From NCBI RefSeq assembly GCF_013030265.1, contig NZ_WPZQ01000008.1, positions 186,001 through 250,000 of the forward strand: a stretch of 64,000 nt of DNA. The letters run 5' to 3'. A program made the position numbers and the translations under genes. Shown here piece by piece: positions 11,243 to 28,095 of the stretch (position 1 is the stretch's first letter; each line of letters starts with the position of its first letter). A model generated the notes under the pieces. The model made no database searches. It was not told the origin of the DNA and saw only the letters and a list, made by a program, of their open reading frames with translations. The DNA is from Ruegeria arenilitoris (lineage in GTDB: Bacteria; Pseudomonadota; Alphaproteobacteria; Rhodobacterales; Rhodobacteraceae).

Positions 11243-11330
11243 CCACTGCAAGTCGCTTTTCCATCTCGGCGATCTGAGAGCGCCTCCATTCGCTTGACAA
11301 CGCCCCTTTGCTTGCCGCATGTCCCTTTCG

Positions 11331-11525
11331 TTGGTGTCTGTGCAAGCAGATGAAAAGGGAATGCATCAGCGGTATGGAATGCCGTCAAATGCAGCCGCCC
11401 CCGCGACCGTGACCGGAGAAGGTGCCCAAAGCCACTGGCCTGCAGGCCGGGAAGGCAGGACACCTGCCAGAGGATACCTCTGACATCCGCAAGCCGGGAG
11501 ACCTGCCAACGCCCGAAGACCAGAC
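11331..11525 (+). ncRNA. Cobalamin riboswitch upstream of the cob operon
   Basis: The conserved cobalamin aptamer elements appear in order: GATGAAAAGGGAATG (11350-11364), GCCGCCCCCGCGACCG (11394-11409), the B12 box GCCACTGG...CCGGGAAGGC (11431-11456) and CCGGGAGACCTGCC near 11494-11507. Downstream, GGACGGGGT (11527-11535) can pair with ACCCCGTCC (11565-11573). A C-run at 11572-11576 could instead pair with the G-run of the ribosome site at 11589-11594. These alternatives suggest translational control of the first gene; that mechanism is inferred by eye. Confidence 0.93.
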
Positions 11526-11603
11526 CGGACGGGGTGTTCCGGTGTCGGGCCAAGGCCCGCGCATACCCCGTCCCCCGAAAACCGTGAAGGGGGGATGAGA
11601 GAC

Positions 11604-11984
11604 GTGACCGAAACGACACCAGTTGAACTGCTGGTCTGCACAACCTGCCGGCGTGGCCTTCCTATCGAGGAAGATGACCAGCGCCCCGGCACATTATTGC
11701 ATAAAGCGCTGACCGAGGCCGAGCTGCCAGATGGCATTGACCTTAAGGCCGTTGAGTGCCTTTCGAACTGCGATCAGGGGTGTTCGATCGTACTGCGTGG
11801 CGGACCGTCCCGCTGGACCTTTGTGTATGAGAACCTCAACGAAACCGACCACGTCGAGACCATCGTCGAAGGCGTCACCAAGTATCTCGCAACCGAAGAC
11901 GGCCTTGTGACATGGCGCGAGCGACCTGAACATTTCCGCAAAAACTGTGCGGCCCGCATTCCCCCGATTGGAGCCCTGAAATGA
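11604..11984 (+). CDS. DUF1636 family putative metal/Fe-S binding protein
   Basis: The protein is a small thioredoxin-like protein of 126 residues. Cysteines at C12, C15, C52, C56 and C60 (CTTC and CLSNCDQGC) suit a metal ion or [2Fe-2S] cluster. The GTG start is preferred because AAGGGGGG ends 9 nt before it; the in-frame ATG nine bases upstream abuts the G-run. The family recurs in cobalamin gene clusters but has no established reaction. Here it is the first gene after the riboswitch and overlaps cobW by ATGA, so a role with CobW in cobalt handling is plausible. A second family member lies at 27134-27478. Confidence 0.85.
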   Translation: MTETTPVELLVCTTCRRGLPIEEDDQRPGTLLHKALTEAELPDGIDLKAVECLSNCDQGCSIVLRGGPSRWTFVYENLNETDHVETIVEGVTKYLATEDGLVTWRERPEHFRKNCAARIPPIGALK

Positions 11985-23957: not shown

Positions 23958-24682
23958 GCGGTTTCGTCTCGTTCATCGGCTCAGGCCCCGGAGATCCGGA
24001 ACTGCTGACGCTCAAGGCCGTTGACCGGATGCAAAAGGCCGATGCGGTTTTGTTCGACGATCTCAGTAGCGGACCTATCCTTACCCACGCCCGTGAGGAC
24101 GCAGATTTGGTGGGTGTAGGAAAGCGTGCTGGTCGCCCCTCACCCAAGCAGGATCATGTGAGCCGTCTGCTGGTCGACTATGCACAAACCGGTGCCCATG
24201 TCGTTCGCCTGAAATCAGGTGACGGAGGTATGTTCGGGCGGCTTGAAGAAGAACTGGTCGCGCTGAAGGCGGCGGGGATCGAGTATGAAATCATCCCCGG
24301 AATTCCATCTGCCGTCGCCGCCGCGGCAGCCGCAGGCATTCCGCTGACCCGCCGCCTGACAGCACGCCGTGTACAATTTGTCACCGGCCACGATGTCAGC
24401 GGCAAGCTGCCCGAAGATCTGAACCTGTCGGCGTTGGCGGATTCGGGGGCGACCACAGTTGTTTTCATGGGCAAACGCACTTTCCCGCTGCTTGTCGAGG
24501 CGCTGCATGCACACGGTTTGCCTTTGCACACGCCCGCGCTGATGGCAGAATCTGTCTCGACACCCGATCAGTCGCTGCACCGCTCGACCATCGGAGCGTT
24601 GTCGGAACGGCTGCAGTCTGAAATCGGAACAGCCCCGGCACTGATACTCTATGGACCGCTGGCGGAGTTCGATGATGTATGA
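23954..24682 (+). CDS. cobA: Uroporphyrinogen-III C-methyltransferase CobA
   Basis: CobA methylates uroporphyrinogen III at C-2 and C-7 to precorrin-2, the entry step to the corrin pathway. The protein has 242 residues. The N-terminus is FIGSGPGDPELLTLKAVDRM. GIPLTRRLTARRVQFVTGH and VFMGKRTFPLL are typical. The usual GDPFVFGRG loop reads SGDGGMFGRLEEE here, a modest variation. No siroheme-type CysG domain is fused, so it is dedicated to the cobalamin branch by context. It overlaps cobF at the stop codon. Confidence 0.95.
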   Translation: MSGFVSFIGSGPGDPELLTLKAVDRMQKADAVLFDDLSSGPILTHAREDADLVGVGKRAGRPSPKQDHVSRLLVDYAQTGAHVVRLKSGDGGMFGRLEEELVALKAAGIEYEIIPGIPSAVAAAAAAGIPLTRRLTARRVQFVTGHDVSGKLPEDLNLSALADSGATTVVFMGKRTFPLLVEALHAHGLPLHTPALMAESVSTPDQSLHRSTIGALSERLQSEIGTAPALILYGPLAEFDDV

Positions 24683-25418
24683 ACTGAGCCTGATAGGGAT
24701 CGGTACAGGCAATCCGGATCACCTGACATTTCAGGGTGCGGAGGCAATTCGTGCAGCTGATCTGATCCTGATCCCGCGCAAGGGTGAGAACAAGGCAGAT
24801 CTTGCCGGCTTACGTGAGAAGATCATTTCTCAAGTCACTGAAGCGGCTCCGCAAATCGCCTATTTCGACATCCCCAAGCGTAGGGCCGATGATGGCTATC
24901 TGCGTGGGGTGGATGAATGGCATGATGCAATCGCACTGCGCTGGCAGGAAGCGATCGCATCCCATCCTGACGCACAAAACGTGGCCCTACTGATCTGGGG
25001 CGACCCCTCACTTTATGACAGTTCGCTGCGAATCGCTGCGCGCCTCTCACCGCAACCGATCAAACGGGTGATTCCCGGTATCACCGCCCTGCAGGCTCTG
25101 ACCGCAGCACATGGGATTCCGATCAACGATATCGGCGCACCCTATGTCGTTACAACCGGTCGCCGTATCCGGGACGAGGGTTGGCCTGAGGCTGCTTCAA
25201 CCGTCGCAGTGATGCTGGACGGCGAATGTTCGTTCCAGAGCCTTGATATGGCAAATTATGACATCTGGTGGGGCGCTTACGTCGGTATGGAAGAAGAAAT
25301 CCTGATCAACGGAACTTTGTCCGAAGTTTGTGATGAGATTCTCTCAACTCGTGCACAGGCACGAACCGATCATGGCTGGATCATGGACATCTACGTTCTG
25401 AAAAAGCGCGTGATTTGA
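24675..25418 (+). CDS. cobF: Precorrin-6A synthase (deacetylating) CobF
   Basis: CobF methylates precorrin-5 at C-1 with loss of acetate to give precorrin-6A. The protein has 247 residues starting MYELSLIGIGTGNPDHLTF; an adjacent ATG one codon earlier is equally possible. Key segments are LILIPRKGENKADL, LLIWGDPSLYDSSLRI and VIPGITALQALTAAHGIP. It is the last gene of the main cob operon. A second cobalamin riboswitch begins about 50 bp downstream. Confidence 0.96.
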   Translation: MYELSLIGIGTGNPDHLTFQGAEAIRAADLILIPRKGENKADLAGLREKIISQVTEAAPQIAYFDIPKRRADDGYLRGVDEWHDAIALRWQEAIASHPDAQNVALLIWGDPSLYDSSLRIAARLSPQPIKRVIPGITALQALTAAHGIPINDIGAPYVVTTGRRIRDEGWPEAASTVAVMLDGECSFQSLDMANYDIWWGAYVGMEEEILINGTLSEVCDEILSTRAQARTDHGWIMDIYVLKKRVI

Positions 25419-25470
25419 CCGAAAACGTCGCAAATGGCGATTGCGCAAACCTGCGCATCGCGGCTAAATG

Positions 25471-25660
25471 ATCGGGTCTGGTCCTGCCGGAGAAATCCGG
25501 ATGCTAAGAGGGAATGTGGTGCGACTTCGTCTGAGGTCAAAGCCAAAGCCGCCCCCGCGACTGTAAGCGGTGAGCCCCTGTTCAACCAGCCACTCCCGAT
25601 TTCGGGGGGAAGGCGAACAGAGGCACCGACCCGCGAGCCAGGAGACCTGCCAGGCGAACG
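25471..25660 (+). ncRNA. Cobalamin riboswitch upstream of cbtBA
   Basis: A second aptamer shows CCGGATGCTAAGAGGGAATG (25497-25516), GCCGCCCCCGCGACTG (25548-25563), GCCACTC...GGGGGAAGGC (25589-25614) and GCCAGGAGACCTGCC (25637-25651). A hairpin GCCGTC/GACGGC (25672-25689), extended by CCA/TGG, touches the GGAGG ribosome site of cbtB at 25693-25697, which fits translational control. It separates the cob operon from the cobalt transporter genes. Confidence 0.93.
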
Positions 25661-25704
25661 TAGAAACACCAGCCGTCGGGTGCGACGGCACTGGAGGACA
25701 AGAA

Positions 25705-25875
25705 ATGACGACACAAACTCAAACAGCATCTGCTGCAAAGACAGGCTTTCTGCCGGTAATGTTCGCAGTGGTTCTGGGCCTGGGTATCATCACCCTGACC
25801 GGCCATGTTCAGGCATCTGGCTTGCATGACGCGGCACATGACGTGCGCCACGCAACCGGTTTCCCCTGCCACTAA
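25705..25875 (+). CDS. cbtB: Cobalt transporter subunit CbtB
   Basis: CbtB is a tiny membrane protein of the predicted CbtAB cobalt transporter, a family recognised mainly from B12-riboswitch control. The protein has 56 residues: a short N-terminus, one membrane helix (about residues 14-35) and a His-rich tail HDAAHDVRHATGFPCH that should bind metal. GGAGG stands 8 nt before the ATG. The cbtA start follows 4 bp after the stop. Confidence 0.9.
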   Translation: MTTQTQTASAAKTGFLPVMFAVVLGLGIITLTGHVQASGLHDAAHDVRHATGFPCH

Positions 25876-25879
25876 GCAG

Positions 25880-26578
25880 ATGTTCAGTCGCATTTTGACC
25901 AGCGCGTTGTTCGCTGGTGCTGCAGCGGGGCTGATTGCCGCCTTGCTGCAGCTTGTATTTGTGCAACCCGTTCTGTTACACGCCGAGCTCTATGAGTCCG
26001 GTGAACTGGTGCATTTCGGCGGAGAAGCTGTCACGGCCCATCCCGAGCTACCGGGCATGTTCTCTGAGCTGACACGCGACGCGCTGAGCGTCATCTTCAC
26101 CATGCTCACCTATACTGGTTACGCACTGGTTCTGGTTGCCCTTATGTCTGTGGCCGAAGGTCAGGGTCACAAGATCGATGGTCGCACAGGTGTTCTGTGG
26201 GGTCTGGCGGGCTTTATCGCGGTTCACTTTGCTCCCGGCTTTAGCCTGGCACCCGAAGTTCCTGGCGTTGCTGCTGCAGATGTTTACGCACGGCAAATCT
26301 GGTGGTTCGCCACTGTCGCGGCTGCGGCGGTTGCCATGTGGCTGATTGCGTTTGGTGGCAACATCATCAGCTACGTGATTGCGGCAGCGTTGCTCGTTGC
26401 TCCACATCTGATCGGCGCACCTGAACCGGATGTCTTCACCGGACCGGTCCCAACCGAAATCGGTGCTCTGTTTGCCGCACGTGCCTTTGGCATCGGCCTT
26501 GTCGCATGGGTTCTGGTTGGCGCATTTGCCGGCTACTTCTGGCAAAGCGAAGGCAAACGCGCCGAAGCGGCAGCCTGA
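25880..26578 (+). CDS. cbtA: Cobalt transporter subunit CbtA
   Basis: CbtA is the membrane component of the predicted cobalt uptake system. The start MFSRILTSALFAGAAAGLIAA is chosen because it opens the first of about five membrane helices; a longer frame begins inside cbtB. The protein has 232 residues. Typical segments are AGFIAVHFAPGFSLAPEVPG and a helix ending LVAPHLIGAPEP. Conserved His and Glu in periplasmic loops are likely metal ligands. Expression should fall when B12 is abundant because of the riboswitch upstream of cbtB. Confidence 0.92.
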   Translation: MFSRILTSALFAGAAAGLIAALLQLVFVQPVLLHAELYESGELVHFGGEAVTAHPELPGMFSELTRDALSVIFTMLTYTGYALVLVALMSVAEGQGHKIDGRTGVLWGLAGFIAVHFAPGFSLAPEVPGVAAADVYARQIWWFATVAAAAVAMWLIAFGGNIISYVIAAALLVAPHLIGAPEPDVFTGPVPTEIGALFAARAFGIGLVAWVLVGAFAGYFWQSEGKRAEAAA

Positions 26579-26594
26579 TACCCCAATATGTCAT

Positions 26595-26626
26595 CCCGCC
26601 GGGCCCCGCCCGGCGGGTTCTTTTTT
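26595..26626 (+). terminator. Rho-independent terminator after cbtA
   Basis: A 9-bp GC stem CCCGCCGGG/CCCGGCGGG with a 5-nt loop is followed by TTCTTTTTT. It ends only 17 bp before the next gene start, so the ribosome site of that gene (AAGGAACAG) lies just beyond it. Some readthrough may still reach the downstream gene. Confidence 0.9.
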
Positions 26627-26642
26627 GGCTCAAGGAACAGAA

Positions 26643-27137
26643 ATGGCTCGCTCACTTGCCCTCTTTGCAATTGGTCTGGTCTTTGGCGGAGGCGCTGGTT
26701 TCGTTCTCGCCGCGGCCAATGGCGTCACATTTGACGGCCACGACCATGCGGACCCCAATCAACATGGCGGTTCTCATGCCGAAGCCATGGCGCATGATCA
26801 TTCGACCGCCATCAACCTGCCTGCCGGTCAGGATGCGCCCGGTCTGGAAATTGCGGTAACGCAGGACCCAATGGCCGGATGGAACCTGCATGTCATGCCT
26901 CGGAACTTTCGGTTTGCGCCCGAAAACGCCTCTGCTGCGGACAATCCCGGTGAAGGTCATGCGCATGTCTATGTGAATGGTACGAAACTCGCGCGTCTTT
27001 ACGGCAATTGGATGCACATCTCCGATCTGCCCAAGGGTGAGGTTGAGATTAAGGTATCGCTGAATGCCAACAGCCACAGCCCGCTGATGGTTGAAGACAT
27101 ACCAGTCAGCGCTTCGGTAACTGTACAAGTGGATTAG
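26643..27137 (+). CDS. His-rich exported protein, putative metal-binding
   Basis: I do not recognise a named family. The protein has 164 residues: a signal peptide or membrane anchor (about 1-24, FAIGLVFGGGAGFVLAAA), then a His-rich stretch (about 31-54) with DGHDHAD and AMAHDHS, then a compact beta-rich domain from about residue 64. That domain includes WNLHVMPRNFRFAPENAS and GHAHVYVNGTKLARLYGNW, which look cupredoxin-like. The ATG is preceded by AAGGAACAGAA. Position just after cbtBA suggests periplasmic cobalt (or copper) capture. It converges with a DUF1636 gene, overlapping it by 4 bp. Confidence 0.7.
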   Translation: MARSLALFAIGLVFGGGAGFVLAAANGVTFDGHDHADPNQHGGSHAEAMAHDHSTAINLPAGQDAPGLEIAVTQDPMAGWNLHVMPRNFRFAPENASAADNPGEGHAHVYVNGTKLARLYGNWMHISDLPKGEVEIKVSLNANSHSPLMVEDIPVSASVTVQVD

Positions 27138-27478
27138 AGCGCCGGAATACGCGCCCGCAAACACAAGCGAAGCCGCCCACACGGTCGGGCGTCTTCGATC
27201 CAGCCTGCAGGGCTGTCCAGATACGCCCGACAAGTTGCAGCAATATCATCCGCATCTGCAACGATATCGATACCCGAAAAAACATATGACGCCATGCCTT
27301 CGCCCTGCAGGGCGATCGACGTTGGTTCGCTGCATCCACTGAAACAGGCGTGTTCTGCGATTTCGATCTCCGCCGCAAGGTCAATGCCGGTCAATGCCGC
27401 TTGTACGGCTTTCCGTTCGGCATCACGATCGCGCGTGCCGGAACAACTGGTGCAAATTAATAGCCGGGTCTGCGCCAA
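27134..27478 (-). CDS. DUF1636 family putative metal/Fe-S binding protein (second copy)
   Basis: The protein has 114 residues and is related in layout to the protein at 11604-11984. Paired cysteines lie in LLICTSCSG and HACFSGCSEP. The start is a TTG with AAGGTGA about 8 nt upstream. It lies on the opposite strand from cbtBA, and its stop overlaps the stop of the His-rich protein gene. A thioredoxin-like fold with a metal or [2Fe-2S] site is expected for the family; no reaction is known. Its place beside cobalt genes supports a role in cobalt or corrin metabolism. Confidence 0.8.
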   Translation of the reverse strand: MAQTRLLICTSCSGTRDRDAERKAVQAALTGIDLAAEIEIAEHACFSGCSEPTSIALQGEGMASYVFSGIDIVADADDIAATCRAYLDSPAGWIEDARPCGRLRLCLRARIPAL

Positions 27479-27630: not shown

Positions 27631-28095
27631 ATGAAATCGCTTTGGTCTGCGCTTTGTCTGTTCGCTCTGCCCGCATGGGCCGAGAATACGGAACCACTTT
27701 CTGGCTGGGCTGTCTATCCGACCGACAAGAGTTATCAGCAGCTCGTGCACGATACAAAAAGCGCCGTGAAAGAAAACGGTCTCATCGTGGTAACGCAGGC
27801 TGGACCGACCAAAGCGGCCGCTGCCCGGGGGATTACGATCCCCGGAAATCGCGTGATTGGTGTTTTCAACAATGACTATGCAGTTCGCGTTCTCGAGACT
27901 TCGACAGCGGCTATGATCGAAGCCCCGATCCGGTTCTATGTAACCGAGAATGACGACGGCACAGCCACCCTGTCCTACAAAACGCCCAGCTTTGTTTTTG
28001 CCCCATATGTCTATGAGGGTGGTGAGCCCTTGGCCGACATTGCCGAAGAATTGGACGATAAGTTTCAGGCCATTGCTGAAAGCGCAGTCAAATAG
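27631..28095 (+). CDS. DUF302 domain exported protein
   Basis: The protein has 154 residues. The start MKSLWSALCLFALPAWA encodes a Sec signal peptide cleaved near residue 17 and follows GGAGG by 7 nt. The mature part is a DUF302 domain: YQQLVHDTKSAVKENGLIVV, then GNRVIGVFNNDYAVRVLE and PIRFYVTEND. DUF302 has no settled biochemical function. It stands alone, about 150 bp from the divergent DUF1636 gene and 80 bp before the TPP enzyme. Confidence 0.85.
   Translation: MKSLWSALCLFALPAWAENTEPLSGWAVYPTDKSYQQLVHDTKSAVKENGLIVVTQAGPTKAAAARGITIPGNRVIGVFNNDYAVRVLETSTAAMIEAPIRFYVTENDDGTATLSYKTPSFVFAPYVYEGGEPLADIAEELDDKFQAIAESAVK

Follow-up and report, generated by a model that had tools for sequence, protein, structure and literature searches.

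A protein of 164 amino acids without any known family, for which the provisional label HisX was coined in this analysis, is encoded behind the cobalt transporter genes cbtB and cbtA in Ruegeria arenilitoris, within a stretch of 64,000 nucleotides (contig NZ_WPZQ01000008.1, positions 186,001 to 250,000 of the forward strand; hereafter the window, from which all features were read and to which the coordinates below refer). With somewhat better than even confidence, the locus is read here as a cobalt uptake unit under the control of a vitamin B12 (cobalamin) riboswitch, in which HisX would act as the membrane-anchored periplasmic subunit handling cobalt, with both metal binding and metal specificity as predicted properties. 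HisX is a new protein family that enlarges a system of known type; CbtAB and the DUF1636 protein encoded nearby were already known. It is probably part of cobalt capture, because its relatives in dozens of genera adjoin cobalt importers, even importers of a different family, and it probably supplies a missing piece of the process by which bacteria capture cobalt for vitamin B12.

The unit is laid out on the forward strand. A cobalamin riboswitch at 25462-25668 (RF00174, 116.6 bits, E = 1.5e-28), one of two in the window, stands directly upstream of cbtB, where the original prediction had placed it. It is followed by cbtB (25705-25875; PF09489, 1.5e-18), encoding a small membrane subunit with the C-terminal His motif GLHDAAHDVRHATGFPCH, and by cbtA (25880-26578; PF09490, 4.4e-47), encoding the permease subunit for cobalt, which is of the LLHAELYE type found together with HisX. 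The identities previously given to both genes hold: in NCBIfam, CbtA passes the TIGR02458 cut-off at 255.9 bits and CbtB scores 55.5 bits against TIGR02459, slightly below the cut-off of 64.4. With adjacent PF09490 and PF09489 domains, they are ordinary members of CbtAB (TIGR02458/TIGR02459), a family for which control by a B12 riboswitch, as seen here, has been described; the difference is that in the window a third gene, encoding HisX (26643-27137), belongs to the unit. The cobalt role of CbtAB has been called predicted and unconfirmed in one source (PMC4771312), and growth of M. capsulatus was improved by cbtB knockdown and likewise by lowered cobalt (PMC13108547), which lends indirect support to CbtAB as a predicted cobalt importer.

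No Pfam or NCBIfam family was found for the window protein at E ≤ 1, and comparison with PDB sequences gave no meaningful match, the weak hits to a VHH and a designed protein being rejected as chance or compositional. Likewise, 24 orthologues showed no Pfam, NCBIfam or PDB sequence match above chance, and the AlphaFold2 model retrieved nothing among PDB folds at E ≤ 0.001, with only generic Ig-like sandwiches of the FnIII, PKD, CARDB and SoxZ types appearing. By sequence and by fold, HisX therefore falls into no known family of these databases, and a literature search found no paper describing it. The model has an overall pLDDT (predicted local distance difference test) of 84 and comprises a helix of residues 3-25, an unstructured segment to about residue 56, and a beta-sandwich. 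As computed over 43 relatives, the helix (26649-26717), predicted to span the membrane, carries a GxxxGxxxG glycine zipper whose G15 and G19 are present in 43/43 and G11 in 42/43, the remaining one being unread. The disordered His/Asp-rich linker (residues 26-56, GHDH ... HDH; 26718-26810), with pLDDT below 50 at residues 32-34 and 39-52, contains five to eight histidines across the relatives (18% His), with H33, D34, H35 and H53 in all 43. The Ig-like beta-sandwich (residues 57-164; 26811-27134), delimited by the strand pattern of the model and a pLDDT of 96-98, holds the invariant H106, H108, H125 and H145, and cysteine is practically absent from the protein.

An unrecognised exported protein with a His-rich segment and a beta-rich domain had been proposed at this place. 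The lack of a family, the histidines and the beta domain all stand, whereas the term "exported" is probably better replaced by "anchored", because the N-terminal helix shows the same degree of conservation as the remainder of the protein. An invariant GxxxGxxxG motif is not what one would expect of a cleaved signal peptide, so the helix is probably a membrane anchor, to judge from its sequence, and the protein anchored rather than freely exported.

A degenerate search of contigs in GTDB (Genome Taxonomy Database) yielded 421 pattern matches, among them 407 relatives of HisX, the best 80 of which were kept. In all 80 of these best relatives, which come from named genomes, cbtB, cbtA and the HisX gene follow one another in this order on one strand, from Ruegeria, which also supplies the closest relative (87% identity), to Thalassospira, Roseibium, Stappia and Thalassobaculum. 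A DUF1636 gene lies nearby in 75 of these 80 loci, as counted from the listing. A neighbour survey weighing co-occurrence against chance had been named beforehand as one of the checks, and its outcome, with HisX behind cbtBA throughout and DUF1636 tracking cbtBA, favours the proposed association. The riboswitch upstream of cbtB recurs in 18 of the 20 related loci tested. Six further genera present the same picture of cbtBA and HisX (in L273, cbtB is displayed next to HisX), and in L007 a second B12 riboswitch (553-772) lies downstream of HisX on the same strand. Among 199 Rhodobacteraceae genomes, sampled as one per genus, CbtA scores above its cut-off in 60, and full-length HisX orthologues stand at cbtA in 24 of 26 genomes.

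The two remaining Rhodobacteraceae orthologues, from genomes without cbtA, are the most informative: the permease is of another family in each, yet it is again a cobalt-type permease under B12 control that HisX accompanies. In G166, a B12 riboswitch is followed by a HupE/UreJ permease gene (PF04955, 2.9e-30), the HisX gene, cobW, an acetyltransferase-like gene and cobN. In G186, the order is B12 riboswitch, cbiM (PF01891, 1.8e-17), cobF and the HisX gene, and no CbiQ or CbiN was found in a search of this genome, which is 93% complete. The conserved linkage and this exchange of permeases favour the earlier idea of a periplasmic cobalt-capture factor for CbtAB, except that a free exported factor does not fit a protein that looks anchored. 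It is conceivable, although we advance the idea only tentatively, that HisX is a portable cobalt-capture subunit able to join permeases of three unrelated families, namely CbtA, HupE/UreJ and a CbiM lacking CbiN and CbiQ, and to give each of them cobalt capture or selectivity, some CbtA proteins carrying a His-rich loop of their own where HisX is lacking.

The evolutionary record of the pairing was read from a CbtA tree of 61 Rhodobacteraceae loci, onto which the presence of HisX was mapped as a label. The label requires three changes, compared with 19 for shuffled labels, which is consistent with about one gain and two losses of the HisX-cbtBA pairing, and the CbtA proteins that retain HisX form one clade. 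Because the loci are related by descent, binomial linkage probabilities were not used as evidence. The motif LLHAE at the start of the first CbtA loop is found in 22/24 proteins with HisX versus 1/37 without it. HisX-accompanied CbtA proteins have a short first loop with at most three histidines, and about eight HisX-less ones, mostly of one clade, contain loop inserts with four to eight histidines; His-rich inserts of this kind were seen in L181, L185, L187, L192, L193, L195 and L198. These patterns lead to the suggestion that a His-rich CbtA loop in cis and HisX in trans do the same job, an idea weakened by the fact that most HisX-less CbtA proteins have neither HisX nor a His-rich loop.

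The invariant transmembrane glycine zipper, as in a structural subunit, and the restriction of HisX-accompanied CbtA to one clade with its own loop signature would also be expected if HisX served the assembly, stability or gating of the cobalt permease, acting through its helix and beta-sandwich with the histidines secondary. We consider this unlikely, as all 43 relatives keep H33, H35, H53, H106, H108, H125 and H145, and the occurrence of HisX beside unrelated permeases would be unneeded for a dedicated CbtA assembly factor.

A different alternative arises from paralogues. HisX-type domains that lack the zipper helix occur in fusion proteins behind PCu(A)C-like domains (PF04314, 1.6e-10 to 6.2e-17) that match copper chaperones in the PDB, other paralogues pair with YHYH proteins, and one belongs to a urease accessory cluster, a nickel system. 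HisX could accordingly be a periplasmic metal buffer or a copper or nickel chaperone, binding copper, nickel or surplus cobalt and protecting or loading another protein, with no import step. Such a role appears improbable for HisX itself, since orthologues of full length, which carry both the zipper helix and the His linker, remain in cobalt loci with a B12 riboswitch despite the exchange of permeases, and PF04314 and copper families of any kind gave no match among the 24 orthologues. The PCu(A)C copper chaperones resemble HisX as periplasmic beta proteins with conserved histidines, and by the fusion of HisX paralogue domains behind a PCu(A)C-like domain; in contrast, full-length HisX lacks PF04314, which was absent from the window protein as well as from the 24 orthologues and detected only in the longer paralogues. 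The fold may serve more generally as a metal module of the periplasm, which in the HisX clade has become specialised for cobalt.

The contexts of the paralogous domains are diverse. Fusions behind a PCu(A)C-like domain were observed in L160, L162, L164, L166 and L234; those of L160, L162 and L164 adjoin two genes resembling a hydantoinase pair, and those of L162, L164 and L166 lie near an ABC binding protein. HisX-type domains stand beside a DoxX-like membrane protein in L030, L033, L148, L153, L154, L269, L270 and L271 and are fused to one in L169, the DoxX-like partners having an N-terminal HVRWF or similar segment. Neighbouring YHYH (PF14240) or YHYH-like proteins were found in L032, L151, L152 and L278, with RND-type transporter genes following the pair in L278. 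In L235 (1690-6610), a HisX-type protein is clustered with ureE, ureF, a ureG-like gene and a branched-chain/urea-type ABC transporter.

The 64-base gap between cbtA and the HisX gene contains a terminator-like hairpin with a T run (26595-26626, forward strand), in which 10 GC pairs (hairpin at 26595-26617) are followed by TTCTTTTTT; its folding energy is -26.7 kcal/mol (z = -2.8). A hairpin of different sequence occupies the same place in many roseobacter, Thalassospira and Roseibium-type loci, and double-sided changes are preserved at six of eight pairs across 20 loci. In Sulfitobacter-type loci, cbtA and the HisX gene overlap or nearly do so, and the hairpin is absent where the genes overlap. 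To judge from these sequences, the hairpin likely lowers HisX expression. Co-transcription of cbtA and the HisX gene is direct in some genera and probably damped in others, including the window, since some loci have the hairpin and others the gene overlap.

Several observations count against the interpretation of HisX as a cobalt-handling subunit, and the identity of the metal is the chief doubt. His-rich segments bind many metals, and metal binding by HisX is predicted from its sequence. The fusions and pairings of paralogues with PCu(A)C-like, YHYH and DoxX-like proteins could mean copper. HisX is not essential to CbtAB, because 37 of the 61 Rhodobacteraceae CbtA loci work without it, and the many HisX-cbtBA loci are not independent events, given that about one gain and two losses account for them. 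A terminator-like hairpin separates cbtA from the HisX gene, and the cases of partner exchange are two single genomes, one of which (G186) is 93% complete.

If HisX is nonetheless a subunit of the cobalt uptake unit, the following scheme can be proposed. Its glycine-zipper helix would pack against the permease, and its His-rich linker would collect Co(II) at the periplasmic face. The beta-sandwich, through H106, H108, H125 and H145, would then present the ion or pass it to the permease entrance, which in CbtA bears an extra histidine (LLHAE), found almost only in the HisX clade. Inside the cell, cobalt would go to CobW and CobNST; delivery of Co(II) by CobW to the CobNST chelatase is established for the pathway. 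When B12 is abundant, the riboswitch would shut off cbtBA and, via readthrough, HisX, whose level the hairpin after cbtA probably keeps below that of cbtBA. The DUF1636 thioredoxin-like ferredoxin would take part in the B12/cobalt system separately, as a cytoplasmic partner.

Similar arrangements are known from other transporters. CbiN, the accessory subunit of CbiM in CbiMNQO, is likewise a small membrane-bound helper with an extracytoplasmic part that adjoins a cobalt permease, and its extracytoplasmic loop lies over the CbiM metal pocket (PMC7689651); moreover, HisX accompanies a CbiM without CbiN in G186. However, CbiN consists of two helices and a short loop (PMC7689651), whereas HisX combines a single helix with a large beta-sandwich, and CbiN (PF02553) had no match in the window genome (G000), G166 or G186. 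NikK/NikL-type components of nickel/cobalt energy-coupling factor transporters are also periplasmic or anchored permease helpers, some of them in B12-riboswitch operons (PMC2667541), from which HisX differs in that it matches nothing in Pfam or NCBIfam.

The second B12-associated protein of the locus, DUF1636 (27134-27478; PF07845, 6.8e-19, 68.8 bits against a cut-off of 31.6), is encoded on the reverse strand and converges on the HisX gene, the stop ends of the two overlapping by 4 bases. The gene proposed to come next after HisX is thus present, but it lies outside the riboswitch transcript because it is on the minus strand, for which reason a common riboswitch transcript of HisX and DUF1636 was rejected. 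The DUF1636 model (pLDDT 92) matches the thioredoxin-like ferredoxin of Rhodobacter capsulatus (9jn8) at 1.7e-8 and, more weakly, the Aquifex [2Fe-2S] ferredoxin (1f37/1m2a), and C9, C12, C45 and C49 are invariant in 26 sequences. The name "ORF378" attached to 9jn8 had suggested a tyrosinase caddie protein, a label rejected on the basis of the fold search. On the evidence of the model, DUF1636 adopts the thioredoxin-like [2Fe-2S] ferredoxin fold that an earlier sequence-based prediction had assigned to it (PMC4520260), and is predicted to bind a cluster. It shares the fold and four invariant cysteines with these ferredoxins, but its cysteine spacing is CxxC plus CxxxC, with one ligand position unlike that of the Aquifex protein (PMC4520260).

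The genome contains three DUF1636 copies, all at B12-riboswitch loci. Besides the copy converging on HisX, one (11595-11984, forward strand; PF07845, 4.9e-32; PDB 9jn8, 7.4e-31) opens the cob operon behind the other riboswitch of the window (11315-11524, forward strand; RF00174, 97.5 bits) and is followed by cobW (TIGR02475, 535.8 bits), as had been noticed from the sequence. The last gene of this operon, a tetrapyrrole methylase gene read as cobF (24672-25418, forward strand; PF00590, 5.6e-29), lies directly upstream of the riboswitch-cbtBA-HisX unit, and the same gene type directly precedes HisX in G186. The third copy is the first gene behind a third riboswitch (L213:8006-11558, G000:C21), ahead of a FecCD-type ABC importer (ATPase, binding protein and permease) whose closest names in NCBIfam, those of F420-0 and B12 transporters, all scored under the cut-off. 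Across Rhodobacteraceae, 35 of 61 cbtA loci have a DUF1636 gene at a distance of no more than 2.5 kb, in three gene arrangements (16/24 loci with HisX and 19/37 without), and two or more copies are present in 37/60 genomes with CbtA versus 17/139 without it. These figures support the proposed pairing of DUF1636 with cobalt proteins, and do so beyond what the sequence alone could show; the role of DUF1636 is probably the redox handling of cobalt, a corrinoid or an Fe-S enzyme in the B12/cobalt system.

Because DUF1636 is found near cbtBA in lineages with and without HisX, in several arrangements, and few events on the CbtA tree suffice to account for the HisX pairing, one could take DUF1636 for the actual cobalt-specific partner and HisX for a passenger carried along by operon inheritance in one CbtA clade. 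This is very improbable: the movement of HisX to HupE and CbiM operons is unexplained by inheritance with cbtA, and the metal-type residues of HisX are invariant. A DUF302 protein (27631-28095) is encoded further downstream in Ruegeria and probably stands outside the cbtBA-HisX unit, because in other genera it is several kb away or was not seen.

For work on the mechanism of CbtAB, HisX offers an additional subunit that can be tested, has conserved residues and occurs naturally with three kinds of permease. As a cobalt-handling subunit, it would open a direct route to the question of how scarce cobalt is selected on the outer side of the bacterial inner membrane. For DUF1636, a family of unknown function, the hypothesis of a redox protein can now be put forward; it is found repeatedly at the B12-riboswitch loci of roseobacters, bacteria that matter for the marine supply of B12.

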